From Halorussus litoreus (GTDB lineage: Archaea; Halobacteriota; Halobacteria; Halobacteriales; Haladaptataceae), in NCBI RefSeq assembly GCF_003382685.1, contig NZ_QLVG01000002.1:1-64000 (forward strand): a DNA stretch of 64,000 nucleotides, read 5' to 3'. The notes under the pieces were generated by a model. It had not been told where the DNA came from, ran no database searches, and worked only from the letters and a program-made list of their open reading frames with translations. The translations under genes and the position numbers were made by a program. The first letter of the stretch is position 1; the number at the start of each line of letters is the position of its first letter. Shown here one piece after another: positions 9,769-20,187 of this stretch.

Positions 9769-10179
9769 TTAGTCGTGATTTTCGCGCTCGGTGATCTCGG
9801 CAAAGGCAACGTTCTCAGTGACGTCGGTGATTTCGACGGTGACACGCTCGCCGCGCTCGGTATCAGGGACAATGACGACGAAGCCACGCTCGACACGCGT
9901 GATGCCGTCTCCTTGATCGCCAATATCTTCGATTTCGACGGTACGCTGCTCGCCTTCGGCAACCGGTGGCGTGCTCGGCGTCTGCCCGCGCTGTGAGTCG
10001 GTGGGAGTCTCGGCAGCGTCGTCGGTGGCTGCTGCTCCGAGAACAGCCACGCGGTACGTGTCGCCCTGCTGCAGCTCGCCACGGTCTATCTCGCGCTCGG
10101 GAATCTTAATGAGATACGTCCCGTCTTGCTGTTCGACAGCGCCAGCGAATAGACACCGCAGTTGGGTGGGAATCTCCAT
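9769..10179 (-). CDS. TRAM-domain protein
   Basis: 136 residues. The C-terminal 65 residues form a TRAM domain (VAEGEQRTVEIEDIGDQGDG, GITRVERGFVVIVPDTERGE, RVTVEITDVTENVAFAEI), a beta-barrel RNA-binding fold found in archaeal small RNA-binding and RNA-modifying proteins. The N-terminal 50 residues (KIPEREIDRGELQQGDTYRVAVLG) form another small beta domain, with a low-complexity Thr/Pro linker between. Likely binds RNA, perhaps as a chaperone like cold-shock proteins. Single gene. Confidence 0.8.
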   Translation of the reverse strand: MEIPTQLRCLFAGAVEQQDGTYLIKIPEREIDRGELQQGDTYRVAVLGAAATDDAAETPTDSQRGQTPSTPPVAEGEQRTVEIEDIGDQGDGITRVERGFVVIVPDTERGERVTVEITDVTENVAFAEITERENHD

Positions 10180-10233
10180 TACTCGTGTTCTGATCGAGAT
10201 ACGCAGTGAAGCCCACTTGAGGCTGCGGTCTGG

Positions 10234-10386
10234 CTACTCCGGCGCGACGACGTCCCCACACGATGGACACTCTGCCCAAACGCCGTCAGTCCCGTCGTCT
10301 TTATTGTATTCAACAAGCAGCCACGCAGAGGTAATCGGGTCGCCACAGTCCGGACACTGACCAAGCGACGAGTCATCGGTAGGCAT
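10234..10386 (-). CDS. 50-residue zinc-ribbon protein
   Basis: MPTDDSSLGQCPDCGDPITS, AWLLVEYNKDDGTDGVWAEC, PSCGDVVAPE. Two CPxCG knuckles (residues 11-15 and 40-44) flank a beta hairpin, a complete zinc-ribbon micro-protein. The ATG is at 10384-10386 and the stop at 10234-10236. Such small zinc proteins are abundant in haloarchaea and mostly uncharacterised. Confidence 0.65.
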   Translation of the reverse strand: MPTDDSSLGQCPDCGDPITSAWLLVEYNKDDGTDGVWAECPSCGDVVAPE

Positions 10387-10547
10387 GCCTAGGGGTGAAA
10401 GGAGCGTGTGACAGGTCCTTCCACGTGGAGTTCACTCCGGTTGGAAGATAAGCCTTTGGCGGGTTTACTGGTTGTACACCCCCGGATTTCCGGAGAAAAT
10501 CCCGCACCAGTACCATTAACTCACTGCTGCCGGAATATCGGATACTC

Positions 10548-10703
10548 ATGAGTGTCCGTGCGGTACTCGCTCAGCTACTCCCCGGTGACGAGCCGGAGGT
10601 CGTCGTTGAGTGCCGCCACTGCGGAACGAAGCTCCCACCAGACGCAGATCAATGTCCTGACTGTGGATCAGACGAGATCGGGCACCACCGGATTTCCGAG
10701 TAA
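10548..10703 (+). CDS. 51-residue zinc-ribbon protein
   Basis: Begins MSVRAVLAQLLPGDEPEVVV, then ECRHCGTKLPPDADQCPDCG and a short tail. Two CxxCG knuckles make a zinc ribbon. The ATG at 10548 lies about 33 bases after a TTAACT box, consistent with a leaderless or near-leaderless transcript. Function unknown. Confidence 0.65.
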   Translation: MSVRAVLAQLLPGDEPEVVVECRHCGTKLPPDADQCPDCGSDEIGHHRISE

Positions 10704-10844
10704 CTGATCGTGCTCCTCGGCAGCGAGCGTCATCAAACGGCACACACACCGTCTATGACTACCCCGACAAACGGTAAGTACAGGTGGAACACGCATCGTT
10801 TCATATGGAAAACCTATTTACTACGCTGGGTATTCGGTCGAAAT

Positions 10845-11018
10845 ATGCTTGACTCCCCACACGTTCGCTTTATTATCAGCTTCCTCGCCGCGTTTCCGCT
10901 CTCAGCGATTATTTCGCCACCCGATATATTCGGACAGCTGTTCGTCCTCGTACTCCTCGTAGTGGTCTCGTACTACCTGAGCTACAAAGGCGGATACGAT
11001 GCTCTCCTGGGCAACTGA
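10845..11018 (+). CDS. 57-residue membrane protein
   Basis: From ATG 10845: a hydrophobic FIISFLAAFPLSAIIS segment and a second span FGQLFVLVLLVVVSYYLSY. A TATTTA box at 10815-10820 lies 25-30 bases before this ATG, so I prefer it over upstream in-frame ATGs. No family recognised. Confidence 0.55.
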   Translation: MLDSPHVRFIISFLAAFPLSAIISPPDIFGQLFVLVLLVVVSYYLSYKGGYDALLGN

Positions 11019-11042
11019 CTCGATACATTCGCACACCTACGG

Positions 11043-11113
11043 AGCGGCTGTTTCACTCAGGATTTGCTGGTAAGAATTCGCCTCGATGTGGTGCGTAGCT
11101 TCGGTAAGTACAG
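11043..11113 (+). repeat. 71-bp dispersed repeat, copy B
   Basis: Second copy of the repeat at 9191-9261. Its right end runs into the promoter of 11152-11535 (TTATC about 30 bases before the ATG), so part of the repeat may be a promoter module. Confidence 0.65.
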
Positions 11114-11151
11114 AGAAACAACTTATCATCCAGCCAGCCGTGGTTTCCGGT

Positions 11152-11535
11152 ATGAAGTCTTGGTCCTCGGCGTTAATCGGTCTCGGAATAGGTGGCGTGC
11201 TTGGCTATCTATTCGGTATACGGCGTGGAGATTGGTGGATTGGGGGTAGTATCGCAGTTACGTCATCAATCGCAGCGTACGGGTTTCTTGCATATCCCCA
11301 GTATCGATTCAAATGGTCTGGTCCTCACTCGAAATTCTGGTACACTCTCCTCAGCGTGCTTGCCCCGATAATAATGCTTCTCACGCCAATTAGCCCGCTC
11401 CTCCCGGATGACCTGTCGATAGTGGCCCTCTTAGGGAGTATCTGGACCGGTGGCGTGTATGCTGGAGTGGCGCTCGCACACGAGTCTCCAGACACTACTA
11501 ATAACGAAGCACCATCTTCGTCTCCCAGTGATTGA
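11152..11535 (+). CDS. Membrane protein with four predicted spans
   Basis: 127 residues from ATG 11152: spans SALIGLGIGGVLGYLFGI, WWIGGSIAVTSSIAAYGFLA, FWYTLLSVLAPIIMLL and IVALLGSIWTGGVYAGVALA, with a polar Ser/Thr-rich C-terminal tail. Longer in-frame starts upstream lie within the 71-bp repeat and are not preferred. Unknown role. Confidence 0.65.
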   Translation: MKSWSSALIGLGIGGVLGYLFGIRRGDWWIGGSIAVTSSIAAYGFLAYPQYRFKWSGPHSKFWYTLLSVLAPIIMLLTPISPLLPDDLSIVALLGSIWTGGVYAGVALAHESPDTTNNEAPSSSPSD

Positions 11536-11652
11536 CGCTCGGTACGCAGGCTTGCTTATCGGCGTGTTCACCGTAGAGATAGATGAAATCAACTTCGCTG
11601 AAAGCGTTCTATGACAGCCTCTACAGACAACTGAAAATCAACAGTAGAGGCG

Positions 11653-12552
11653 TTAGACAGCCAGTTCGTCCAGTGTGTCGCGGTGGGTCCGAACGGTGAC
11701 CGCTGAGACGTTCGCTACTTCAGCGATGTCCGACTGGGTGAGCCACCGCCCGTCTTCGCGTCCGGCTTTGTACAGACAGGCTGCAGCGAACCCGGACGGC
11801 TGAACCCCCGTGGTTGCCCCGGTCGATTCGGATGCTTCCGCCAGCTGCCGAGCCCGCTGCCGGATCTGATCGGAGACGTCGAGCTCCGACGCCAACCGTG
11901 GAACGAACGCACTGGGCGTCACGGGCTGGGCAGGAAGGCCAAGCTCCGTATTCAGCGTCTTGTACGCGTTCGTCACTCGCGATTGCTCGACGCGCGCCGG
12001 GTCGGTGACGTCCTCGAGGGTTCGCGAGAGTCCGTCGCACCGACAGGCGCCGTAGACGCTCGCGGTGGCCATCGCTTCGATCGACCGGCCCTGCAGGAGG
12101 TCCTCGTTCTGGGCGCTCCGGAAGAGCTGGCAGGCCTGGTCACGAATCATCTCGGACAGCTCAAGTGCGCTCACGATCCGGCGAACCTCACCCAGACCGT
12201 GCGCGAGATTGCGCTCGGCTTTCGACTGAAACCGCCCACGGGTCTGTTCACGCCGCATCCGAGCGAGCCGCCGTCGCTTCCGTCCTGAGAGTTCGTTCCC
12301 GTTCGCATCGGTCCCGCGGCCGATCTCCGTCGACAACCCTCGATCGTGTCGTGCCGCCGTCAACGGAGCGCCAGTTCGTTCACGCTCGTCGTCGAACGCT
12401 CGCCACTCTGGCCCGTGGTCGATCCGCTCCTCGTCGATGACGAGCCCACACTCCTCGCAGATGGTTTCGACTGCGTTGGTGGTGACCCGGCCGTCGCACT
12501 CGGGACATTGGTTAGGGTTCGCTTCCTTCTGGGTTTTCAACCTCCGCCCCAC
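11653..12552 (-). CDS. tfb: Transcription initiation factor TFB
   Basis: About 299 residues. N-terminal zinc ribbon CPECDGRVTTNAVETICEEC, then a B-finger region with WRAFDDERERTGAPLT, and two cyclin-like repeats; the C-terminal helix-turn-helix contacts the BRE beside the TATA box. It recruits RNA polymerase to TBP-bound promoters; haloarchaea carry several TFBs with different promoter choice. The start is uncertain: no ATG is near the zinc ribbon. GTG 12552 or TTG 12540 are candidates, both inside the end of the ATPase gene, implying coupled translation. A second, truncated-by-window TFB is at 63552-64000. Confidence 0.85.
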   Translation of the reverse strand: MGRRLKTQKEANPNQCPECDGRVTTNAVETICEECGLVIDEERIDHGPEWRAFDDERERTGAPLTAARHDRGLSTEIGRGTDANGNELSGRKRRRLARMRREQTRGRFQSKAERNLAHGLGEVRRIVSALELSEMIRDQACQLFRSAQNEDLLQGRSIEAMATASVYGACRCDGLSRTLEDVTDPARVEQSRVTNAYKTLNTELGLPAQPVTPSAFVPRLASELDVSDQIRQRARQLAEASESTGATTGVQPSGFAAACLYKAGREDGRWLTQSDIAEVANVSAVTVRTHRDTLDELAV

Positions 12553-15220
12553 ACTCGGCACAGGTAGCAACCGTCTGTTCTGGCCGGTCGATTTCGTCGA
12601 GGTGGTCGTCGACGAGCGCGTCGATATCTCGATAAACGACGAATGCACTCCCGATTTGGACATCGCTGTCCCGAATCGAGGTCTCGACATCGGGAGATTT
12701 CGCGAACGGTTCCGGATGCGGCCACGTTTCAGGCTCCGCTGTCCCGACCCAGTACGCTGTCCCAGACTCGCCATCCCAGTATGCGTACCCGTGGTCACTA
12801 ACGAGGGAGGAGACAGTCTCTCGAATCGGTTTTGTGCTGAAGAGGTAGTCCAGCCCCGGCTTCTTCGCGTATTGGTTGACCAGCGCTTCGGTGGACATAG
12901 CGTCCTGGGTCTGCTGCCAGAGTTTCTGTTGGACGTGAGCGGACCCACGAGCGCCGGCGTCGCGTTTCACGATCTTATCCTCGAGCGTTGTCTGGACAGC
13001 GTCGACCAGTGTCGTCCCGCCGTTGGATTCGGTCGCACCGATGGTGATGTGGGTAAGCCCGTCCCGGTCAGGGTAGTAGAGGTGCCGGTAGACGTTCCGA
13101 ACGAGCTCTCCGAGCATCAGCTGTGCCTCGTCGCTCCGTTCTCGAAGCTCCTCGATTTGTTCCGAGGAGAGGTCGGCTTTCTGTTCGGGGCTATCAAGCA
13201 GGGCCTCTATAGCCTCGAGACGCCGAGCCTCGTCGATTGCCGCATCCATTCGATCAGCGTCAGGGGCGAGGAACAGAGCGTAGTTCTTGTAGATTCGCGT
13301 CTCAGTCTCTCCCTCGTGTTTTGCGGCTTGCTGCTCGTAGAGCTGAGTCACACGATTTGGCGGCGTATCGCCGCCGTCTTCGACAGCAGCGGTGTCCGGA
13401 TGCATCACCGCGAGCTTCGGCGTATCCGGGGTATCCGGTAAGTCCGCTGGCGATTCAGGGAACTCCACCGGCTGGAAGCCACCATCGCCGATTTCCTTCG
13501 AGGTGAGACGGTTCTGGAAACGCGAATGAGCGCTCGCTTCGGGGGTAGACTCGATCCGCTGGTCGATGATCCGGATCAGATTTGGTTCTTGCTTGAATCG
13601 GAGGCGCTCTTCCTCGTAGAGGAAGTAACACGCGACGTCCATATCGTCGCCCCGGAGTGCGGATAGTGCGGCATCGTAGTCGTCGAAGTTCAGATTGGGA
13701 TGACCGATGGCGAGGTTCAGATCGGCGTGAGTTAGGCCGGCGGCCTGTTCACCGTATGCGAGGCTGTGCCAGAGAACTGTCGTTGTCAGATGGGTTCCGA
13801 GGGGCGGGAGACCGTTTTCGGTCCATTTCCGATCCTCAAGCTGGGCGTGCGCGGTACCATCGTCGTCGTAGATGTCGGCGGTCACTGCGGGGCCGAGATC
13901 GACGAAGTCGAATAGGCGCTCACGAAGGATCGTCTGAATCCCGCCGCCAGGATCGTCATCAGCGACTGTGAGGTCGTAGATCCGAATCCAGTGGCGGTCG
14001 TAACTGTCGGGCTGGTGATTCCAGAGGTAGTAGACGGCTCGAGCAAGCAAGCGGAGGGCGTCACGAGTGCGTTGGAATCGAGGGATCGTATCGATCTTGT
14101 CCGTGAGAGCGTCGATTAAGGAGGGATGGAAGGGGTATTCGCGAGCGAGGACATCCACGTAGCCAGCGTCGGTGGCTTCCTGTGGATACTGCCGGTCTTC
14201 CTGGTCATAGAATTGGAAGTATGAGTCGGCGGCTTCGTGCGCGGCGTTTTCTGGAACTTCCGAGAAGAGTCGGTGCTGAAGGACTTGTCCGATCTCGTTT
14301 TCGTCGGTCGGCGTGACCGTCTTGTGCTGCCGCCGGCCAATCTCATTGACCTCCTCGATATGGTCACGGACGCCATCACGAACCCGGTCAGCCTGCTCAC
14401 CAAAGGCCGTATCCGCGATAGAGTAGACGACCGTGACGTGCTCCGATTCGGCAGCCGCTTCGAGGAGCGCCATCACGAACGAAAGCGTCTGATCGGCGAG
14501 CGTCTTGTCGCCGACAGGCGTGCCCGCGGCTTTGTTCATGTAGTCGGCGATTTCGTCGATCAGAATGAGGGCCGGCTGGTCGTGCTGAGCGAAGAGTTTC
14601 GAGAGCGTCCCCTCACCGGGGGCGTCCCGGTCTTGGTCGTAGTCCTTGAGGTACTCGTAGCCATCGAGCCCATAGAGCTGGTACGCGAGTTCACCCCACA
14701 TCGTCCGGGTATTCGGAGCATCCGGATCGTCGTCGGTATGGCGGGCATCCTTGCTATCAGCCTTCGTTCCGATGAAGACCCCCGTCGCAATATCGAGGCC
14801 CTCTGCCACCGCATCTTGATAGTCGGCCGCAAGCTCCTCGTCGCCGTCCAGCAGGTAGTGTGAGAGGTCGTCAATATCTACGGGGTTCTCAGCAAGATGG
14901 TAAGAGGCGATGAGGTCGTGCGTTTTCCCACCACCGAACCGTGTGTCGAGACAGAGAATGCTCGAAGTATACGAGCCGGGGTCGTACTTTGTGGTCGCCA
15001 AGAAACGCCCCGTGAGATTGGAGAGCAGCGTGCGGAGACCCTCCGTGGGATAGGTCATATCGTAGAACGAGTCGGGGTCTCGATAGACTGGTGCTGCCTT
15101 CTCAGGGTTGTGGACGACAGTCGAGAGTTTCGCAGCGAACTGTTCCTCTTGGAGCGAGCCGTCTAAGACGTCGTCTCGTGGCTGACAGCTTTCGAAGAGA
15201 GAAGGGTACTCATTACTCAT
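12512..15220 (-). CDS. DUF499-like P-loop ATPase
   Basis: 902 residues. Walker A is TRFGGGKTH (about residues 93-101) and Walker B is PALILIDEIADY (about 216-227). The long helical remainder and the sequence around the P-loop fit the DUF499 family, giant ATPases often found in DNA-modification-linked phage-defence clusters (a role like PglY/BrxC). The C-terminus has a lone CAECG knuckle. The usual methylase, helicase or PglZ partners are not nearby. The start overlaps the stop of 15213-15440, so the two are translationally coupled, and tfb follows downstream. An orphan or repurposed defence ATPase is the best guess. Confidence 0.7.
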   Translation of the reverse strand: MSNEYPSLFESCQPRDDVLDGSLQEEQFAAKLSTVVHNPEKAAPVYRDPDSFYDMTYPTEGLRTLLSNLTGRFLATTKYDPGSYTSSILCLDTRFGGGKTHDLIASYHLAENPVDIDDLSHYLLDGDEELAADYQDAVAEGLDIATGVFIGTKADSKDARHTDDDPDAPNTRTMWGELAYQLYGLDGYEYLKDYDQDRDAPGEGTLSKLFAQHDQPALILIDEIADYMNKAAGTPVGDKTLADQTLSFVMALLEAAAESEHVTVVYSIADTAFGEQADRVRDGVRDHIEEVNEIGRRQHKTVTPTDENEIGQVLQHRLFSEVPENAAHEAADSYFQFYDQEDRQYPQEATDAGYVDVLAREYPFHPSLIDALTDKIDTIPRFQRTRDALRLLARAVYYLWNHQPDSYDRHWIRIYDLTVADDDPGGGIQTILRERLFDFVDLGPAVTADIYDDDGTAHAQLEDRKWTENGLPPLGTHLTTTVLWHSLAYGEQAAGLTHADLNLAIGHPNLNFDDYDAALSALRGDDMDVACYFLYEEERLRFKQEPNLIRIIDQRIESTPEASAHSRFQNRLTSKEIGDGGFQPVEFPESPADLPDTPDTPKLAVMHPDTAAVEDGGDTPPNRVTQLYEQQAAKHEGETETRIYKNYALFLAPDADRMDAAIDEARRLEAIEALLDSPEQKADLSSEQIEELRERSDEAQLMLGELVRNVYRHLYYPDRDGLTHITIGATESNGGTTLVDAVQTTLEDKIVKRDAGARGSAHVQQKLWQQTQDAMSTEALVNQYAKKPGLDYLFSTKPIRETVSSLVSDHGYAYWDGESGTAYWVGTAEPETWPHPEPFAKSPDVETSIRDSDVQIGSAFVVYRDIDALVDDHLDEIDRPEQTVATCAECGAEVENPEGSEP

Positions 15221-15440
15221 CGATTTCCTCCGTGGGTGAGGAATCAGCTTCTGGTTTGGATACGATTACGAATTCACACTCCGTGCTGTTCTCGATGATC
15301 GCCTTGGCGATCCCCTTCGACTCCGCGACATCGACCTTGATAGTGTCCCCAACCTCCGCATCGAATTGGTCGAGTTCGGGTCCCGACAGATTCACCCGGC
15401 CCGATTGGCCGGTGTTCTGTCCAATTGTCTTCTGAGTCAT
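15213..15440 (-). CDS. Small partner protein upstream of the ATPase
   Basis: 75 residues from ATG 15440 (a GTG at 15452 is an alternative). It has an N-terminal Gly/Gln-rich stretch and a beta-rich middle (SGRVNLSGPELDQFDAEVGD, TIKVDVAES) reminiscent of the swapped-hairpin AbrB/MazE DNA-binding fold, then an acidic tail. Its stop overlaps the ATPase start by 8 bases, which suggests a fixed stoichiometric or regulatory partnership. AbrB-like identity is a guess from pattern only. Confidence 0.6.
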   Translation of the reverse strand: MTQKTIGQNTGQSGRVNLSGPELDQFDAEVGDTIKVDVAESKGIAKAIIENSTECEFVIVSKPEADSSPTEEIDE

Positions 15441-15583
15441 CTGGATAGTCACATCACCTAGCGGGAATGTTATAACCTTTACTTAGTCTAAGTTCCCGAT
15501 TTGTAGTATGGTAGTTCTTCTATAGCCCCTCCCCCCACTACCCCCTGAATACTAAGTGACTGGGGGTAATCGGTCTACTCACA

Positions 15584-16552
15584 ATGCAAATTAATCGCGG
15601 TCCTCGCGACCACCGATATGGGACGTACTGGAATCGTATCCCGGAGTGTATGCCAAGGCACGTCCCGGTAGCAGACCTGAGGGGCTTCTCCATACCCCGT
15701 AACGAGGGGGGAGTACCCTCTAGAGAAGAGTTCCCCTATCCAGTAGTCCCGGTCACCGACCAATACCAGTTACATCTGTTCCCGGCACCTGACCATATCC
15801 GGCCGATGCTGGTTCGGCTCACCGATGGCGAAGTGCTCACCGATGGTCACGAACCGTACGGATTCTGGTTGACCGTCGATGGGATTGCCGAAGCTCGAGA
15901 GACACTCATCGCACAGGCAGAGAACTATACGAACCAGACAGCACCTCGAGAGCTCGGAACCGCCCTCCAAGACGCACTCGTCACGGATGAACTGCTACAC
16001 GACATCTTCTCAGAGCAACTTACTGAGAAGCTCCGTCCACCGACCGTTCGTTGGCTTCGTGACCGTACCAAGTCTGTAAGCGCAGACACTGTCGAATACA
16101 CCGGTGGGGCGTACGTCAAAACGGAGTGGACCATCGAGTTGGAGCCTGAATCAAACAGGGGAGAGCGATCCCCACGGACACTCGAGTTCCACACCGATGA
16201 CCTCATTCAGCAGGATTCGCAACGGTTCACGGTTGATTACCGGCAGCTCTTCCGCCAGCAAATTCGATGCTCGAACACCTGGTGGACGGATCTCAGCAGA
16301 TACTGGATTACCTCGGCAACGGTCGAAGATATTGTAGACGACGATTATCCCACAGAAGACGAATCTGCGTTCTCGCTCCGCCAATCTGGGAAGGCGAAGT
16401 ACCACCTCGTACGGAATGAAACTGGGACGACCGTCTGTGGTCATGAAGCCCGTTCAGGCGACACCCGGCAATTCTCCCCAGATACGCTCCCGATACCAGC
16501 GGCACTCTGCAACCATTGTTCCAGAGAAGTCAAACGACACCTGATTCCCTGA
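15584..16552 (+). CDS. Hypothetical protein, 322 residues
   Basis: No family recognised. It starts MQINRGPRDHRYGTYWNRIP, has a DGEPYGFW-like region in the first third, and a C-terminal block with CGHEARSGDTRQF and LCNHCSREVKRHL that could be a small metal site (Cys/His). A long helical region lies between residues 100 and 170. It is divergent from the ATPase operon; the 140-base gap is rich in homopolymers. Confidence 0.6.
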   Translation: MQINRGPRDHRYGTYWNRIPECMPRHVPVADLRGFSIPRNEGGVPSREEFPYPVVPVTDQYQLHLFPAPDHIRPMLVRLTDGEVLTDGHEPYGFWLTVDGIAEARETLIAQAENYTNQTAPRELGTALQDALVTDELLHDIFSEQLTEKLRPPTVRWLRDRTKSVSADTVEYTGGAYVKTEWTIELEPESNRGERSPRTLEFHTDDLIQQDSQRFTVDYRQLFRQQIRCSNTWWTDLSRYWITSATVEDIVDDDYPTEDESAFSLRQSGKAKYHLVRNETGTTVCGHEARSGDTRQFSPDTLPIPAALCNHCSREVKRHLIP

Positions 16553-16691
16553 GAATAGTGTCAATTCGAGCTGAATCGCTGATCGTGAATAGCGGAACAC
16601 GATAGAATCAGTCGGTCCGCAACACCTGTTTAAACCAGACAGAAGCGGTACAGCACCAGAATATTATGACGTTCCAGTCGTGGTATTTTGT

Positions 16692-17147
16692 ATGAGCATC
16701 CCCGATCTCACCCCGATACGAGAGTCTCTTGATGTCAGAATCGAGGAGCTGGAAGAGGAGCAAAAACGCCAGGAAGAGCGGCACGAAGGAGATGGAAGCA
16801 CACCCGCGGTTTGGGACAAGGTGGAACCGAAAATTCGGCGCGATGTCGTGGAGGATTGCCAGGAGGATCTTGATGGCGTGGACGAACAAGACGAGGTTCT
16901 CCGAATATTGGCTGAATGGCGCCGTAACGAAAATCGAGAGTGGGAATTCAACAGGAACAGTTCCACAGTAGAGAACGAACGAAACAACATCAAGACGGCT
17001 GAAATTCGGATCTGGAAGGAGGAGCTCATAGAACTAATTCCTGAGTCTGAATTCAAGACCTGCGGCCTCTGTGAGTCTATTCAAATGCCAAAAATCGACC
17101 GGCGCAGGAGTCGAGAGTATGTATGGGAATGTCCTGACTGCTTCTAG
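16692..17147 (+). CDS. Hypothetical coiled-coil protein with terminal zinc knuckles
   Basis: 151 residues. A charged heptad-rich segment (RIEELEEEQKRQEERHEGDG) suggests a coiled coil. The C-terminus has CGLCESIQMPKID and WECPDCF, a zinc ribbon. A TATTAT box lies about 28 bases before ATG 16692, so the message is probably leaderless. AT-richer than most neighbours. Function unknown. Confidence 0.65.
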   Translation: MSIPDLTPIRESLDVRIEELEEEQKRQEERHEGDGSTPAVWDKVEPKIRRDVVEDCQEDLDGVDEQDEVLRILAEWRRNENREWEFNRNSSTVENERNNIKTAEIRIWKEELIELIPESEFKTCGLCESIQMPKIDRRRSREYVWECPDCF

Positions 17148-17192
17148 TCTGGGCCCACGGACATCTATTATACTGACGACAAGAGGGGGAGT

Positions 17193-17552
17193 ATGGGCGC
17201 ATCTGATTGGGCTGGCAGGATGTGTTTGCGACTAGAAGAGGAGTTTGACATAAGCGAGGACCGGGCCCTCCGTATCACGACACTCGTTCGACTACTCCGA
17301 GGGGAAGGATATGAGGATGTCTTTGGCGAGTACGGAAGCGAACGACACCAGAAACTCCAAAAGCAGCTGATCGACGAACTCGATAAGTCACTCCTCGAGC
17401 AGTCCGGCAATACGATCGAAGAACGCTGGAATAACTTGATGGATGAGTTGGACTGTCAAAGTCGCGCTGACAACGGAGTATACCTCATCCCCTGGAGTGA
17501 ACACGAAGCCGACGACTGGCAAAATCCCGGTGTGACGAGTTCTCGCCCGTGA
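17193..17552 (+). CDS. Hypothetical 119-residue protein
   Basis: Helical, acidic protein (LEEEFDISEDRALRITTLVR, LQKQLIDELDKSLLEQ). GGGGGAG lies just before ATG 17193, and a TATTATA box about 28 bases upstream. The stop overlaps the GTG start of 17549-17794 by 4 bases, so the two form an operon. No recognised motif. It is the last unit before the origin region. Confidence 0.55.
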   Translation: MGASDWAGRMCLRLEEEFDISEDRALRITTLVRLLRGEGYEDVFGEYGSERHQKLQKQLIDELDKSLLEQSGNTIEERWNNLMDELDCQSRADNGVYLIPWSEHEADDWQNPGVTSSRP

Positions 17553-17794
17553 CACGATGTTCCGGAAATCCCGGAACCCTTGAATTTCCACGAGTGGTCG
17601 TCGACGACGAGAAGAGCTCGCGAGACCGGGTCGCTCTCGCCCACGAAGCGATCGAGACCTACGACGCCTCGTACTACGAGACGCAGCTGGTTCGAGCGGT
17701 TGAGAGCATACTGGCACCTCTTGACTGGGATCGGAATGACATCCGACGAGAACTCAACGAAACACATGTAGTCGGGATCACAGACTGGACCTGA
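17549..17794 (+). CDS. Hypothetical 81-residue protein
   Basis: The GTG start overlaps the previous stop (GTGA). Acidic helical protein (SSRDRVALAHEAIETYDASY, YETQLVRAVESILAPL). Its position directly beside the origin repeats may be meaningful for plasmid maintenance, but nothing in the sequence proves a role. Confidence 0.5.
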   Translation: MTRCSGNPGTLEFPRVVVDDEKSSRDRVALAHEAIETYDASYYETQLVRAVESILAPLDWDRNDIRRELNETHVVGITDWT

Positions 17795-18162: not shown

Positions 18163-18190
18163 TTACAACTCGAAAAAGGGGGGAGGGGGT
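18163..18190 (+). repeat. ORB-like origin repeat
   Basis: CTTACAACTCGAAAAAGGGG followed by GGAGGGGG; the closest match, in inverted orientation, to 17799-17826. Confidence 0.85.
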
Positions 18191-18303
18191 GAAACATTCG
18201 AGATCACCAAAGCGGCTTCTCCAGCAATATGTCCGAAACCCGGCATTCCTCTCACTCGTGAACGGATTCTACGAGCGGCGTTCTTTCGCAACCATTCTGG
18301 CGC

Positions 18304-18324
18304 TTACTACTCGAAAACGGGGAG
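18304..18324 (+). repeat. ORB-like origin repeat
   Basis: TTACTACTCGAAAACGGGGA; plus orientation. Confidence 0.8.
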
Positions 18325-18467
18325 TGTGAGAAAGACCGTATCACCCTGGGCATCATTCACAAAATCCGGATTATGTGGATTTTGCTCCGAGACCCACCTC
18401 GACTCACTTCTCCTTACAACGTGAGGGTGGGTGCATCGAACCATGTGTGTTACAGCCTCCCAACATC

Positions 18468-18490
18468 TTACAACTCGAAAACGGGGGGTC
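18468..18490 (+). repeat. ORB-like origin repeat
   Basis: TTACAACTCGAAAACGGGGG, consensus copy, plus orientation. Confidence 0.85.
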
Positions 18491-18534
18491 CGGGTCATCG
18501 AGGAAGTTCGACGATAGCGAGCTTCGTTGAACCG

Positions 18535-18557
18535 TTACAACTCGAAAACGGAGGGTG
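18535..18557 (+). repeat. ORB-like origin repeat
   Basis: TTACAACTCGAAAACGGAGG, plus orientation. A degenerate relative (TTACAACTCCACAAGGG) follows near 18634, just before the orc promoter. Confidence 0.8.
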
Positions 18558-18687
18558 ATAGATTCCGAAGACGGTATCTGACTCATCCAGAGGATACGGG
18601 GCTGTAGTCGTTAGATAGCCTGTTTTCGCCCGGTTACAACTCCACAAGGGTCCATATTTTTATACCCAGAGTTCGAGGGGGTTCATA

Positions 18688-20187
18688 ATGGGACGAGAGG
18701 GACGTAGAGCAGGATCGAATAATCCGGAAGGTGAGGAGGATCGTGAATCTTCTGCTGCTGATCCTGAAACTCCTGAATCGACGGATGAGGAGGTGGCGTC
18801 TCCTGGCACGTCACAAACGACCTTCGAAAACGGATCAGATCCCGCTGATTCGTCTCAAGAAGCAACTAATGGCGACGGTGGCGGCATCTCAATTCGTGAT
18901 AGGCTCCAAACCGAGTCGTCCGGCGGGGTCTTCGCGAACAAAGACCTCGTCCGGTCAGATACCATCATCGACGAGGACCGGATCGTCGGTCGTGACGACC
19001 AGCTAGGCCGTGTCGTCGACAACCTAAAACCGGTCCTCCAGAATGAGGGGATCCCCGATATGCTTCTGAGTGGTCCTTCTGGAACTGGGAAGTCGCTCAT
19101 CATTCATGCGGTCTGCAAACAGATCGTCGAACTGTGTGAATCCCAAGGCAAGACCTTCGGGGTCATTTCAATCAACTGCGAGGGGCCGAAGACTGCAGAT
19201 CGGGCTGTCTATCGGTTAGTCAAAGCTGCTGCCGACGACCTCGGCGTTGATCCTGGTGTTCCCCAAACCGGTGTCTCAACGGATCAGAAGCTGGAGCGAC
19301 TGTACGAACTCATGCGAGAGTATTACGACGGTGTCATCTTCATTCTCGATGAGATCGATATGCTCGAGGGGCCGTATCAGGAAGCAGAGTACAATTCTCT
19401 CATCTACCAGCTTTCACGGGCTCGCAAACTCGCTGACTTTGATGGCCCCATCTCGCTCACAACGATTACGAACTACGCCGACTTTATGAAGGACCTCAAC
19501 AGCCGCGCACAGAGTTCTTACAACCCTGACGACATCTTCTTCGATGATTACGATGCGAACCAGCTCCGTAGTATTCTCCGCAACCGGCGGGACGCCTTCA
19601 AGCCAGACTCACTTGCAGATGACGTTGTTCCGCTTGTTGCTGCGTTCGGCTCCCAAACGCACGGGGATGCGCGGAAAGCGATTGATCTCCTCAGATGGGC
19701 TGGTGAATTAGCCGAGCGGCGTGGGGCTGACACGGTTATCGAGACTGATGTCCGTGATGCTCAGGAAAAATACACCGAAAACCGCAAGCTCCGGCATATC
19801 AGCGGCATTTCGACTCAAAAGAAACTCTCCATCTACGCTGTGGCGGCCACTGCCCACTACGCAAGAGAACATCCTGAGTGGATCCCTGCCGGACCTGCGT
19901 TCAAGACGTATCAATTCATTGCCGATACGATGGATGCGGACCAGTACAGTCGCGAGACGTTCGTGAATCACGTCACAGAGCAGAGTACGTACGGTGTACT
20001 GGACTTCGAGCGTCGGGGCAAGGGGCGAGGCAGAGGAGTGCATATGTATTTCTCCCTCTCCGAGGATCCGGAAACAATCATGGAGACGATCCGTGAGGAT
20101 TCCCGGTTCGAAGATCTAGCTCACGAAGAGGCGACTATCAGCGCGGTTGTCCGCGAACGGCTGAAGCAGTTCCGGAGTAAAAACTAA
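18688..20187 (+). CDS. orc1: Orc1/Cdc6 replication initiator
   Basis: 499 residues. Binds origin repeats and loads the MCM helicase. Walker A GPSGTGKS (129-136), Walker B VIFILDEID (216-224), sensor 1 TTITN (258-262), sensor 2 GDARKA (326-331), and a C-terminal winged helix (about 400-499). The first 80 residues are an acidic, Ser/Pro/Glu-rich extension not needed for the fold and longer than in many homologues. A TATTTTTATAC box about 28 bases before ATG 18688 implies a leaderless transcript. ORB-like repeats flank the gene on both sides, so this is the cognate initiator of the origin. Confidence 0.95.
   Translation: MGREGRRAGSNNPEGEEDRESSAADPETPESTDEEVASPGTSQTTFENGSDPADSSQEATNGDGGGISIRDRLQTESSGGVFANKDLVRSDTIIDEDRIVGRDDQLGRVVDNLKPVLQNEGIPDMLLSGPSGTGKSLIIHAVCKQIVELCESQGKTFGVISINCEGPKTADRAVYRLVKAAADDLGVDPGVPQTGVSTDQKLERLYELMREYYDGVIFILDEIDMLEGPYQEAEYNSLIYQLSRARKLADFDGPISLTTITNYADFMKDLNSRAQSSYNPDDIFFDDYDANQLRSILRNRRDAFKPDSLADDVVPLVAAFGSQTHGDARKAIDLLRWAGELAERRGADTVIETDVRDAQEKYTENRKLRHISGISTQKKLSIYAVAATAHYAREHPEWIPAGPAFKTYQFIADTMDADQYSRETFVNHVTEQSTYGVLDFERRGKGRGRGVHMYFSLSEDPETIMETIREDSRFEDLAHEEATISAVVRERLKQFRSKN

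Follow-up and report, generated by a model that had tools for sequence, protein, structure and literature searches.

We analysed the first 64 kb, hereafter the window, of contig C2 (162,987 bases) from the salt-loving archaeon Halorussus litoreus. The locus is carried on a plasmid, and the haloarchaeal host genome is a draft of 75 contigs (3.84 Mb), rated 99.77% complete. In the window, a gene for a 75-residue protein is followed by a gene for a 902-residue DUF499 ATPase and by a tfb gene. We hold with good confidence that the first two genes are the 5' remnant of a haloarchaeal DUF499-centred restriction-type operon (Hma/BREX-related, BR) cut by two breaks. The full operon would run from the small protein through DUF499, DUF7680 and a DUF1156 methylase to a SNF2/PLD-type helicase. 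The breaks are most simply read as two deletions, of which one would have joined the DUF499 gene to the start-less tfb and the other would have left the neighbouring genes next to the final 66 codons of polB, which encodes a type B DNA polymerase. Because the methylase and the helicase are gone, the window copy most likely gives no defence, and its first gene and promoter are probably still working. With confidence only slightly above even, we propose that the small protein regulates its operon via an inverted repeat. A dimer would bind the repeat over the B recognition element (BRE) and TATA box and repress its own operon, and the same control module appears to head a second methylase-helicase operon on the same contig, one that ends in a gene for TATA-binding protein (TBP). 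The features of the locus were as follows.

15472-15492, minus strand: promoter element CTTAGACTAAGTAAAGGTTAT, an imperfect inverted repeat (TAGACT-AAGTAA-AGGTTA) that overlies the presumed BRE/TATA region and stops some 31 bases short of the ATG (alignment and genome scan).
15216-15440, minus strand: codons of small protein A, 75 aa, first operon gene (ATG at 15440, stop ending at 15213; open reading frame (ORF), and a family common to the first gene of the second operon).
12512-15220, minus strand: DUF499 AAA+ ATPase, 902 aa, C-terminally truncated (ORF, Pfam, PADLOC, NCBIfam and relatives).
12500-12526, minus strand: DUF499/tfb joint, with a patch of about 14 bases similar in both parents (sequence comparison).
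11653-12513, minus strand: tfb gene (TFIIB family) without its native start codon, N-terminus and promoter (Pfam TFIIB and Zn_Ribbon_TF).

The 902-residue ORF was a DUF499 defence-type ATPase with both Walker motifs (DTRFGGGKTH and LILIDEIAD), as the initial annotation had proposed. It matched Pfam DUF499 at 113.7 bits (E 8e-33, cut-off 23). This was the sole Pfam family on the protein, and DUF6079, the family of the BrxC ATPase of BREX proper, was not found on it. The PADLOC profile HmaC gave 277 bits (E 8e-83) and spanned residues 12-823, which was the identical range in a full-length relative. The NCBIfam anti-phage DUF499 equivalog NF042962 gave 202.8 bits, below its curated cut-off of 1200. 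The same protein was found in seven plasmid records at 91-99% amino acid identity, and 18 further loci came from species genomes. The relative in Halosimplex aquaticum had 1099 residues. Compared with it, the window ATPase was without 197 C-terminal residues, including a cysteine-rich stretch, and these residues were 90-100% conserved among close relatives. The DNA homology of the relatives reaching that point stopped at 12513-12516, which is the last codon of the window ORF, and the DUF499 gene ran on past these positions in the 16 relatives shown there. The homology of L016 and L021 ended earlier, at their own contig ends inside DUF499.

In H. aquaticum, the DUF499 gene (1099 aa) was followed by genes for DUF7680 (213 aa), a DUF1156 methylase (962 aa) and a helicase (1316 aa). 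These three genes were sought by tblastn in the fetched relatives, which included 11 of the 22 haloarchaeal plasmid matches listed. All three were present in 26/26 distinct haloarchaeal loci with a visible DUF499 3' end, which does not support the initial idea of an orphan by design. The ATPase identity to H. aquaticum was 90-100% at 21 of these loci and 41-62% at the other 5. Among the 26, L019 has broken frames, L015 and L020 begin inside DUF499, and an additional gene separates methylase from helicase in L073 and L074. The count leaves out L016 and L021 (contigs ending inside DUF499), L022 (a duplicate of L004), the host paralogue and the Nostoc locus L077, whose stretch ends before any helicase. 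The relatives joined ATPase, methylase and helicase in one operon, the combination known from Hma and DUF499-centred BR systems. The helicase of the relatives matched PADLOC PLD_Helicase at 231 bits and Pfam PLDc_2 at 24.8 bits, below the cut-off of 27. No PglZ was named among the annotated neighbours of the relatives, where no profile search aimed at PglZ was made. In the window, DUF7680, the DUF1156 methylase and the helicase were all absent by tblastn. The earlier suggestion of a reduced state was therefore borne out, with 902 of 1099 ATPase residues left and the operon partners missing from the window.

PMC12839542 assigns self-DNA marking to the methylase of DUF499-centred systems, assembly of a scanning complex to the ATPase and restriction to the helicase-nuclease; these steps are inferred there, save for a cited anti-phage test of the helicase. 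The methylases of the relatives fell into groups across 17 loci, with 62-82% identity between groups and variability over approximately alignment columns 1-600. At those 17 loci, the ATPase was 92-100% identical to that of H. aquaticum, and DUF7680 and the helicase were 88-100% identical, except for L024 (85% and 83%). Since the methylase varies while ATPase, DUF7680 and helicase stay near-constant, the sequences suggest near-identical operons with exchanged methylases, in which specificity was swapped and the remainder kept. Among the DUF1156 genes of L004-L026 and L071, L004 and L008 shared 99.5% identity in the ATPase, 98.8% in the helicase and 75.6% in the methylase. A second operon copy (L019) was seen on the H. 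aquaticum plasmid unnamed2, with frame breaks in ATPase and methylase. The plasmid has two operon copies and one is frame-broken; therefore, the redundant copy appeared to be decaying.

The tfb gene adjoined the ATPase stop on the same strand, as had been noted. Its homology, coming from the other side, stopped at the same base as that of the ATPase: the same-genus genome G015 matched at 97.7% from 10154 to 12513 and no further. The intact tfb genes in G015 and G107 start MATSEIYETTFDEDVQTDSSAKQCPEC and MATRDIYETSFDEDVQTESNANQCPEC, respectively. In the window, the tfb N-terminus and promoter were replaced by DUF499 sequence, and the closest in-frame start codons were TTG at 12540 and GTG at 12552, both inside the ATPase gene. 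When the joint was aligned in register, the DUF499 parent read GGAAGCGAACCCTAC, the G107-like tfb read GGAATCGAACGCAAACC and the window read GGAAGCGAACCCTAACC. The patch GGAAnCGAAC at the joint was common to both parents, which fits a crossover within a short shared patch; the tfb parent here is a G107-like stand-in, and against other tfb genes hardly any bases were shared at the joint. A 30-base joint pattern with up to 3 mismatches was found in 2/391 haloarchaeal genomes, namely the host and G107, where the near match was the native tfb. The initial annotation had raised the possibility that ATPase and tfb form a repurposed unit, to be sought elsewhere. The joint recurred in no other of the 391 genomes, and the DUF499 gene breaks exactly where the 5'-truncated tfb starts. 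On this sequence evidence, the "ATPase + tfb operon" is a rearrangement joint and not a system, and the apparent oddity is corrected to a rearrangement scar. A second tfb copy was located at the right edge of the window (G000:C2:63643-64494) and was 80% identical to the start-less tfb.

The promoter and the first gene were then compared among relatives. The sequence TTAGWCTAAGTAAAGGTTAT was kept in 15/15 aligned loci, and the DNA further upstream was unrelated in many. With up to 1 mismatch, it was found at 34 places in 33/391 genomes, and the reversed control gave 0. The 30 places that were read (the window and 29 others) all precede a small gene and a DUF499 gene, the latter with an early stop in L111, and two more places (G174 and G189) were covered by the small-protein profile and tblastn of the neighbours. 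The element ended 30-31 bases before the ATG in the loci read. This is the TATA-box spacing for a leaderless message in haloarchaeal promoters. Promoters of the DUF499 type carried TAGWCT-AAGTAA-AGGTTA in 17/18 cases and the right arm AGATTA in 1/18; for L130, the script picked a different position, and its printed sequence carries the usual element.

The 75-residue gene overlapped the ATPase start by 8 bases (ORF 15440 to 15213), in agreement with the initial annotation. Such an overlap, of 1-11 bases, was present in 18/18 loci (L135 being counted from its ATG). Members of the family had 63-76 aa. A profile of 18 members gave 43 matches in 39/242 haloarchaeal genomes. When seven reference proteins were compared by tblastn with the DNA next to these matches, all 43 proved to head one of two operons, 18 of the DUF499 type and 25 of a type with a DrmMI-like methylase. 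Among the 25, G227 has helicase sequence behind a methylase of which only 3% is left, and the small gene of G177 was a weak match (E 3.6e-4).

The second operon type was also found in the host. A copy of the element with 3 mismatches lies at host C2:129047, upstream of a 63-aa paralogue of the small protein. This paralogue is followed, at spacings of 3, -4 and 0 bases, by ORFs of 1376, 988 and 182 aa, which matched a DrmMI/type IIG methylase, a BrxHII-type helicase and TBP, respectively. The methylase scored 405 bits against DrmMI, and a partial helicase stretch of 698 aa scored 403 bits against BrxHII. The methylase homologue of Halorubrum lacusprofundi matched Eco57I, TaqI_C and N6_Mtase. 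In the 7 loci of the second type that were read, 0-6 bases separate the small gene from the methylase behind it. In 13 distinct loci of this type with at least 99% of the helicase covered, TBP (at least 89% covered) was directly behind in 7, a fragment in 1 and none in 5; L115, L116 and L119 in this set are plasmid records, and L161 and L118 are one place, counted once. The initial idea of a basal transcription factor in a defence operon thus failed at the window, where it came down to the rearrangement joint, and it held for the sister operon on the same contig, which ends in the TBP gene. Operons ending in a TBP gene were seen at G000:C2:117300-129314 (L158) on the window's own contig and in Halolamina, Halorubrum lacusprofundi and pNRC200. 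In L119 (pNRC200, Halobacterium NRC-1), an ISH3-type element interrupts the second-type methylase, and the repeat in the promoter of the small gene looks degraded. No DrmA/DrmB-type gene was named in the second-type annotations viewed, and no profile search for these genes was made.

The second-type promoters carried a repeat of the same kind. TAGTCT-N6-AGACTA was perfect in 14 of the 23 displayed, at -50 to -52 from the ATG; G158 and G177 were not among the 23, and L173, which was, had no recognisable left arm. The strict palindrome TAGTCT-N6-AGACTAT gave 15 sites in 14/242 genomes. Directly before a small gene lay 14 of them, and one (G044) did not. This placement holds partly by construction, because the pattern was derived from second-type promoters; the telling part is that only one site lies elsewhere. 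CapW is a WYL-type regulator like BrxR. Two traits of such regulators were found here, namely a conserved inverted-repeat site upstream of the regulator's own gene and a place at the head of several different defence operons (43/43 matches, two operon types). The main ground for proposing that the small protein binds the repeat is that its gene and the repeat co-distribute and that the repeat is common to both operon types. Binding would most simply repress, because the repeat lies over the BRE/TATA region. A wider proposal, which we regard as somewhat less likely than not, is a portable haloarchaeal control module. In it, a new-family repressor of 63-76 aa and an inverted repeat over its own TATA box would stand before at least two unrelated methylase-helicase systems, one with its own TBP, so that derepression and TBP supply could form a positive switch.

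Several observations weighed against the small protein as a regulator. No DNA-binding fold was detectable in its sequence. The initial annotation had called it AbrB-like, and we take its segment GRVNLSGPEL...VGDxIKVD to resemble AbrB-type motifs, but the tests by Pfam, PDB profiles and profile-profile comparison were all negative and did not support AbrB membership. The 75-aa protein matched 0 Pfam families at E 0.1; the best Pfam hit was MazE at E 0.77 in 1/18 family members. The PDB profile search gave MazE at E 0.37-0.49 in one consistent register, ranking below a thioredoxin at E 0.27. With hhalign, the match to three AbrB-type N-termini of the host scored 0.3%, less than the best shuffled decoys (up to 11.7%). 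No Pfam family of the winged helix-turn-helix (wHTH) or WYL type was found in the 18 members at E 1, and AlphaFold on 15 small-protein sequences gave a predicted local distance difference test (pLDDT) score of 43, which was unusable. As members from both operon types went into the profile, distant members with other partners could be missed. The reversed palindrome pattern occurred in 10/242 genomes, which makes the site number alone unremarkable, and 11/25 second-type genes had no strict palindrome. The repeat could also be a conserved strong promoter recognised by something else.

These points lead to a different account, in which the 75-aa protein is an antitoxin or a structural subunit and the repeat is only a conserved strong promoter. 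The tight gene spacing, with overlaps of 1-11 bases at DUF499 (18/18) and gaps of 0-6 bases at the methylase (7 loci), is as often seen for subunit genes, and the lack of a detected DNA-binding fold agrees with this account. However, one family stands before two non-homologous partner genes, and only 1/15 strict palindrome sites is away from a small gene. We considered this account unlikely, and regulation through the repeat is slightly favoured.

For the ATPase, it was asked whether the truncated protein and the small protein could still be a functional reduced system, alone or borrowing a methylase and helicase from elsewhere in the host. The open frame, the AAA+ core kept over HmaC residues 12-823 and the intact promoter element agree with this. 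The frame is open and decay of the window ATPase was not visible, which counts against a remnant. Private codon changes among six close copies were 3 nonsynonymous and 6 synonymous for the window (0-4 and 2-24 for the others), and these do not discriminate decay from constraint. A possible source of partners was found on contig C28, where one strand encodes DUF499 (1101 aa), DUF7680 and DUF1156 (974 aa), together with a 426-aa ORF that matched no family and a helicase ORF (1308 aa). This operon could in principle supply partners to the window ATPase. However, the C28 ATPase and the H. aquaticum relative share only about 62% amino acid identity, no genome but that of the host was found to have the joint and the lost 197 residues are those highly conserved in close relatives. 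The initial annotation had also proposed to look outside the window for a PglX/PglZ or DUF1156 methylase, or for a complete cluster immediately beyond it. No complete cluster lay to the right on the same contig, and the left side is open, as the contig itself begins where the window does. When the missing part was used as an 8.1-kb query, the host genome gave the C28 match at 67-70% nucleotide identity and three fragments of 35-130 bases; among the 40 candidates scored, of 142 at first look, none was a near-identical copy of the missing genes. We regarded a functional reduced system as improbable. The C28 operon is complete, and therefore the host probably retains one DUF499 system there, with the window copy as a remnant. 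Upstream of the C28 DUF499 gene (L034 12860-13125), a 71-aa ORF also overlaps the start by 8 bases, and a stretch GAGTAAAGATCATAAC 28 bases before its ATG resembles the promoter element; by tblastn, this ORF was not detectably a member of the small-protein family.

On the other side of the operon, the following features led up to the second break.

15584-16552, plus strand: 322-aa ORF, divergent neighbour, conserved beside the operon in some of the relatives (PADLOC, NCBIfam and PHROGs gave no family, and Pfam none above its cut-off).
16680-17147, plus strand: 155-aa ORF, divergent neighbour (no Pfam or PHROGs family).
17193-17552, plus strand: 119-aa ORF, divergent neighbour (no Pfam family over cut-off, no PHROGs family).
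17593-17594, no strand: second joint, from DUF499-neighbourhood to type B DNA polymerase sequence (no bases seen in common to the two sides).
17594-17794, plus strand: polB remnant, last 66 codons (relatives).

The right-hand homology of the longer relatives ended at 17593, and the match to the polB end began at 17594. A complete polB of 716 aa was present in Halorientalis marina and Haloplanus rallus. One Haloplanus rallus plasmid carries, in order, an AAA ATPase gene matching the orc1/cdc6 gene of the window, polB, other genes, Cdc6/Cdc18, three unknown genes, the small protein and the complete operon. The window could be derived by deletions from a plasmid like this one. A 5-kb transposon was considered and rejected: the block 12513-17593 is near-identical across genera, but its boundaries are the two breaks inside or beside genes. 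Inspection of the joints by eye, without a dedicated repeat search there, showed neither terminal repeats nor a target duplication. Between the polB remnant and the orc1/cdc6 gene (18688-20187), a 28-nt repeat of type TTACAACTCGAAAACGGGGGG occurs four times at 18163-18562, with 75-100% identity to the reference; these are perhaps origin repeats. A scan of the window gave no tRNA and no Rfam family at the gathering cut-off.

The two joints at 12513 and 17593 might be assembly chimeras, so that the real plasmid would carry the full operon. The genome is a draft in many contigs and the 12513 joint was in no other genome searched, and a misassembly at the joints is conceivable, which weighs against the remnant reading. 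However, neither joint has a long repeat, so that the usual cause of a mis-join is absent and repeat-induced mis-assembly is unlikely. Moreover, within the candidates scored, this almost complete genome gave no near-identical match to the missing 8 kb. Chimeras were therefore considered very improbable, and two real breaks in a once complete operon are preferred. Least probable of all was a start-less tfb expressed from the defence promoter as a now defence-controlled transcription factor. In favour of this are the complete TFIIB core, the presence of start codons in the tail of the ATPase gene and the TBP gene at the end of the sister operon, but the arrangement was found once, the nearest starts are TTG and GTG inside another gene and the host has other tfb genes.

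Judged from sequence, the window finding is a truncated member of a known system, and the part that merits attention is the shared small gene and candidate operator before two haloarchaeal defence operons, one of which often has its own TBP. To our knowledge, the regulation of archaeal defence operons is little studied. Halobacterium NRC-1 plasmids carry the second-type operon, partly interrupted, and the precise candidate operator and the two operon types make the regulator idea directly testable in model haloarchaea. Among the open-access papers listed by our searches, no title or displayed abstract described the small protein, the repeat before its gene or operons of this kind with a TBP gene. 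The nearest reports were of TBP genes in TOTE/TALON systems of other architecture, in the part of PMC12458937 concerned, and of BREX-like methylases in haloarchaea, in that of PMC10609329.

The complete relatives share the DUF499 ATPase, the DUF1156-type methylase and the helicase with a PLD-like N-terminus with Hma (PADLOC, PMC8565338) and with the DUF499-centred BREX-related systems (PMC12839542). In contrast to these systems, the window copy has the ATPase alone, without its C-terminus. The relatives add DUF7680 and the small first gene, and PMC12839542 mentions neither DUF7680 nor AbrB in its main text. The methylase and helicase of the sister operon are related to the class 1 methylase (DrmMI) and the BrxHII/DrmD helicase of DISARM; unlike DISARM, this operon begins with the small protein and often ends with a TBP gene. 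With the swapped-hairpin proteins of the AbrB/MazE/SpoVT group, the small protein shared weak MazE alignments in one register, which were not significant by Pfam, PDB profile or profile-profile comparison. BrxR is a WYL-type regulator of BREX and other bacterial defence operons (PMC9122589). The small protein differs from BrxR and CapW in being archaeal, in its length of 63-76 aa, in having no detectable wHTH/WYL domain (and thus no wHTH-WYL-WCX architecture) and in a site over the presumed TATA region, to which it would bind. As in BrxR and CapW, its gene is upstream in the operon, is common to different defence systems and has a specific site before its own start. These similarities suggested that the small gene and its candidate operator might be an archaeal counterpart of bacterial defence regulators such as BrxR.

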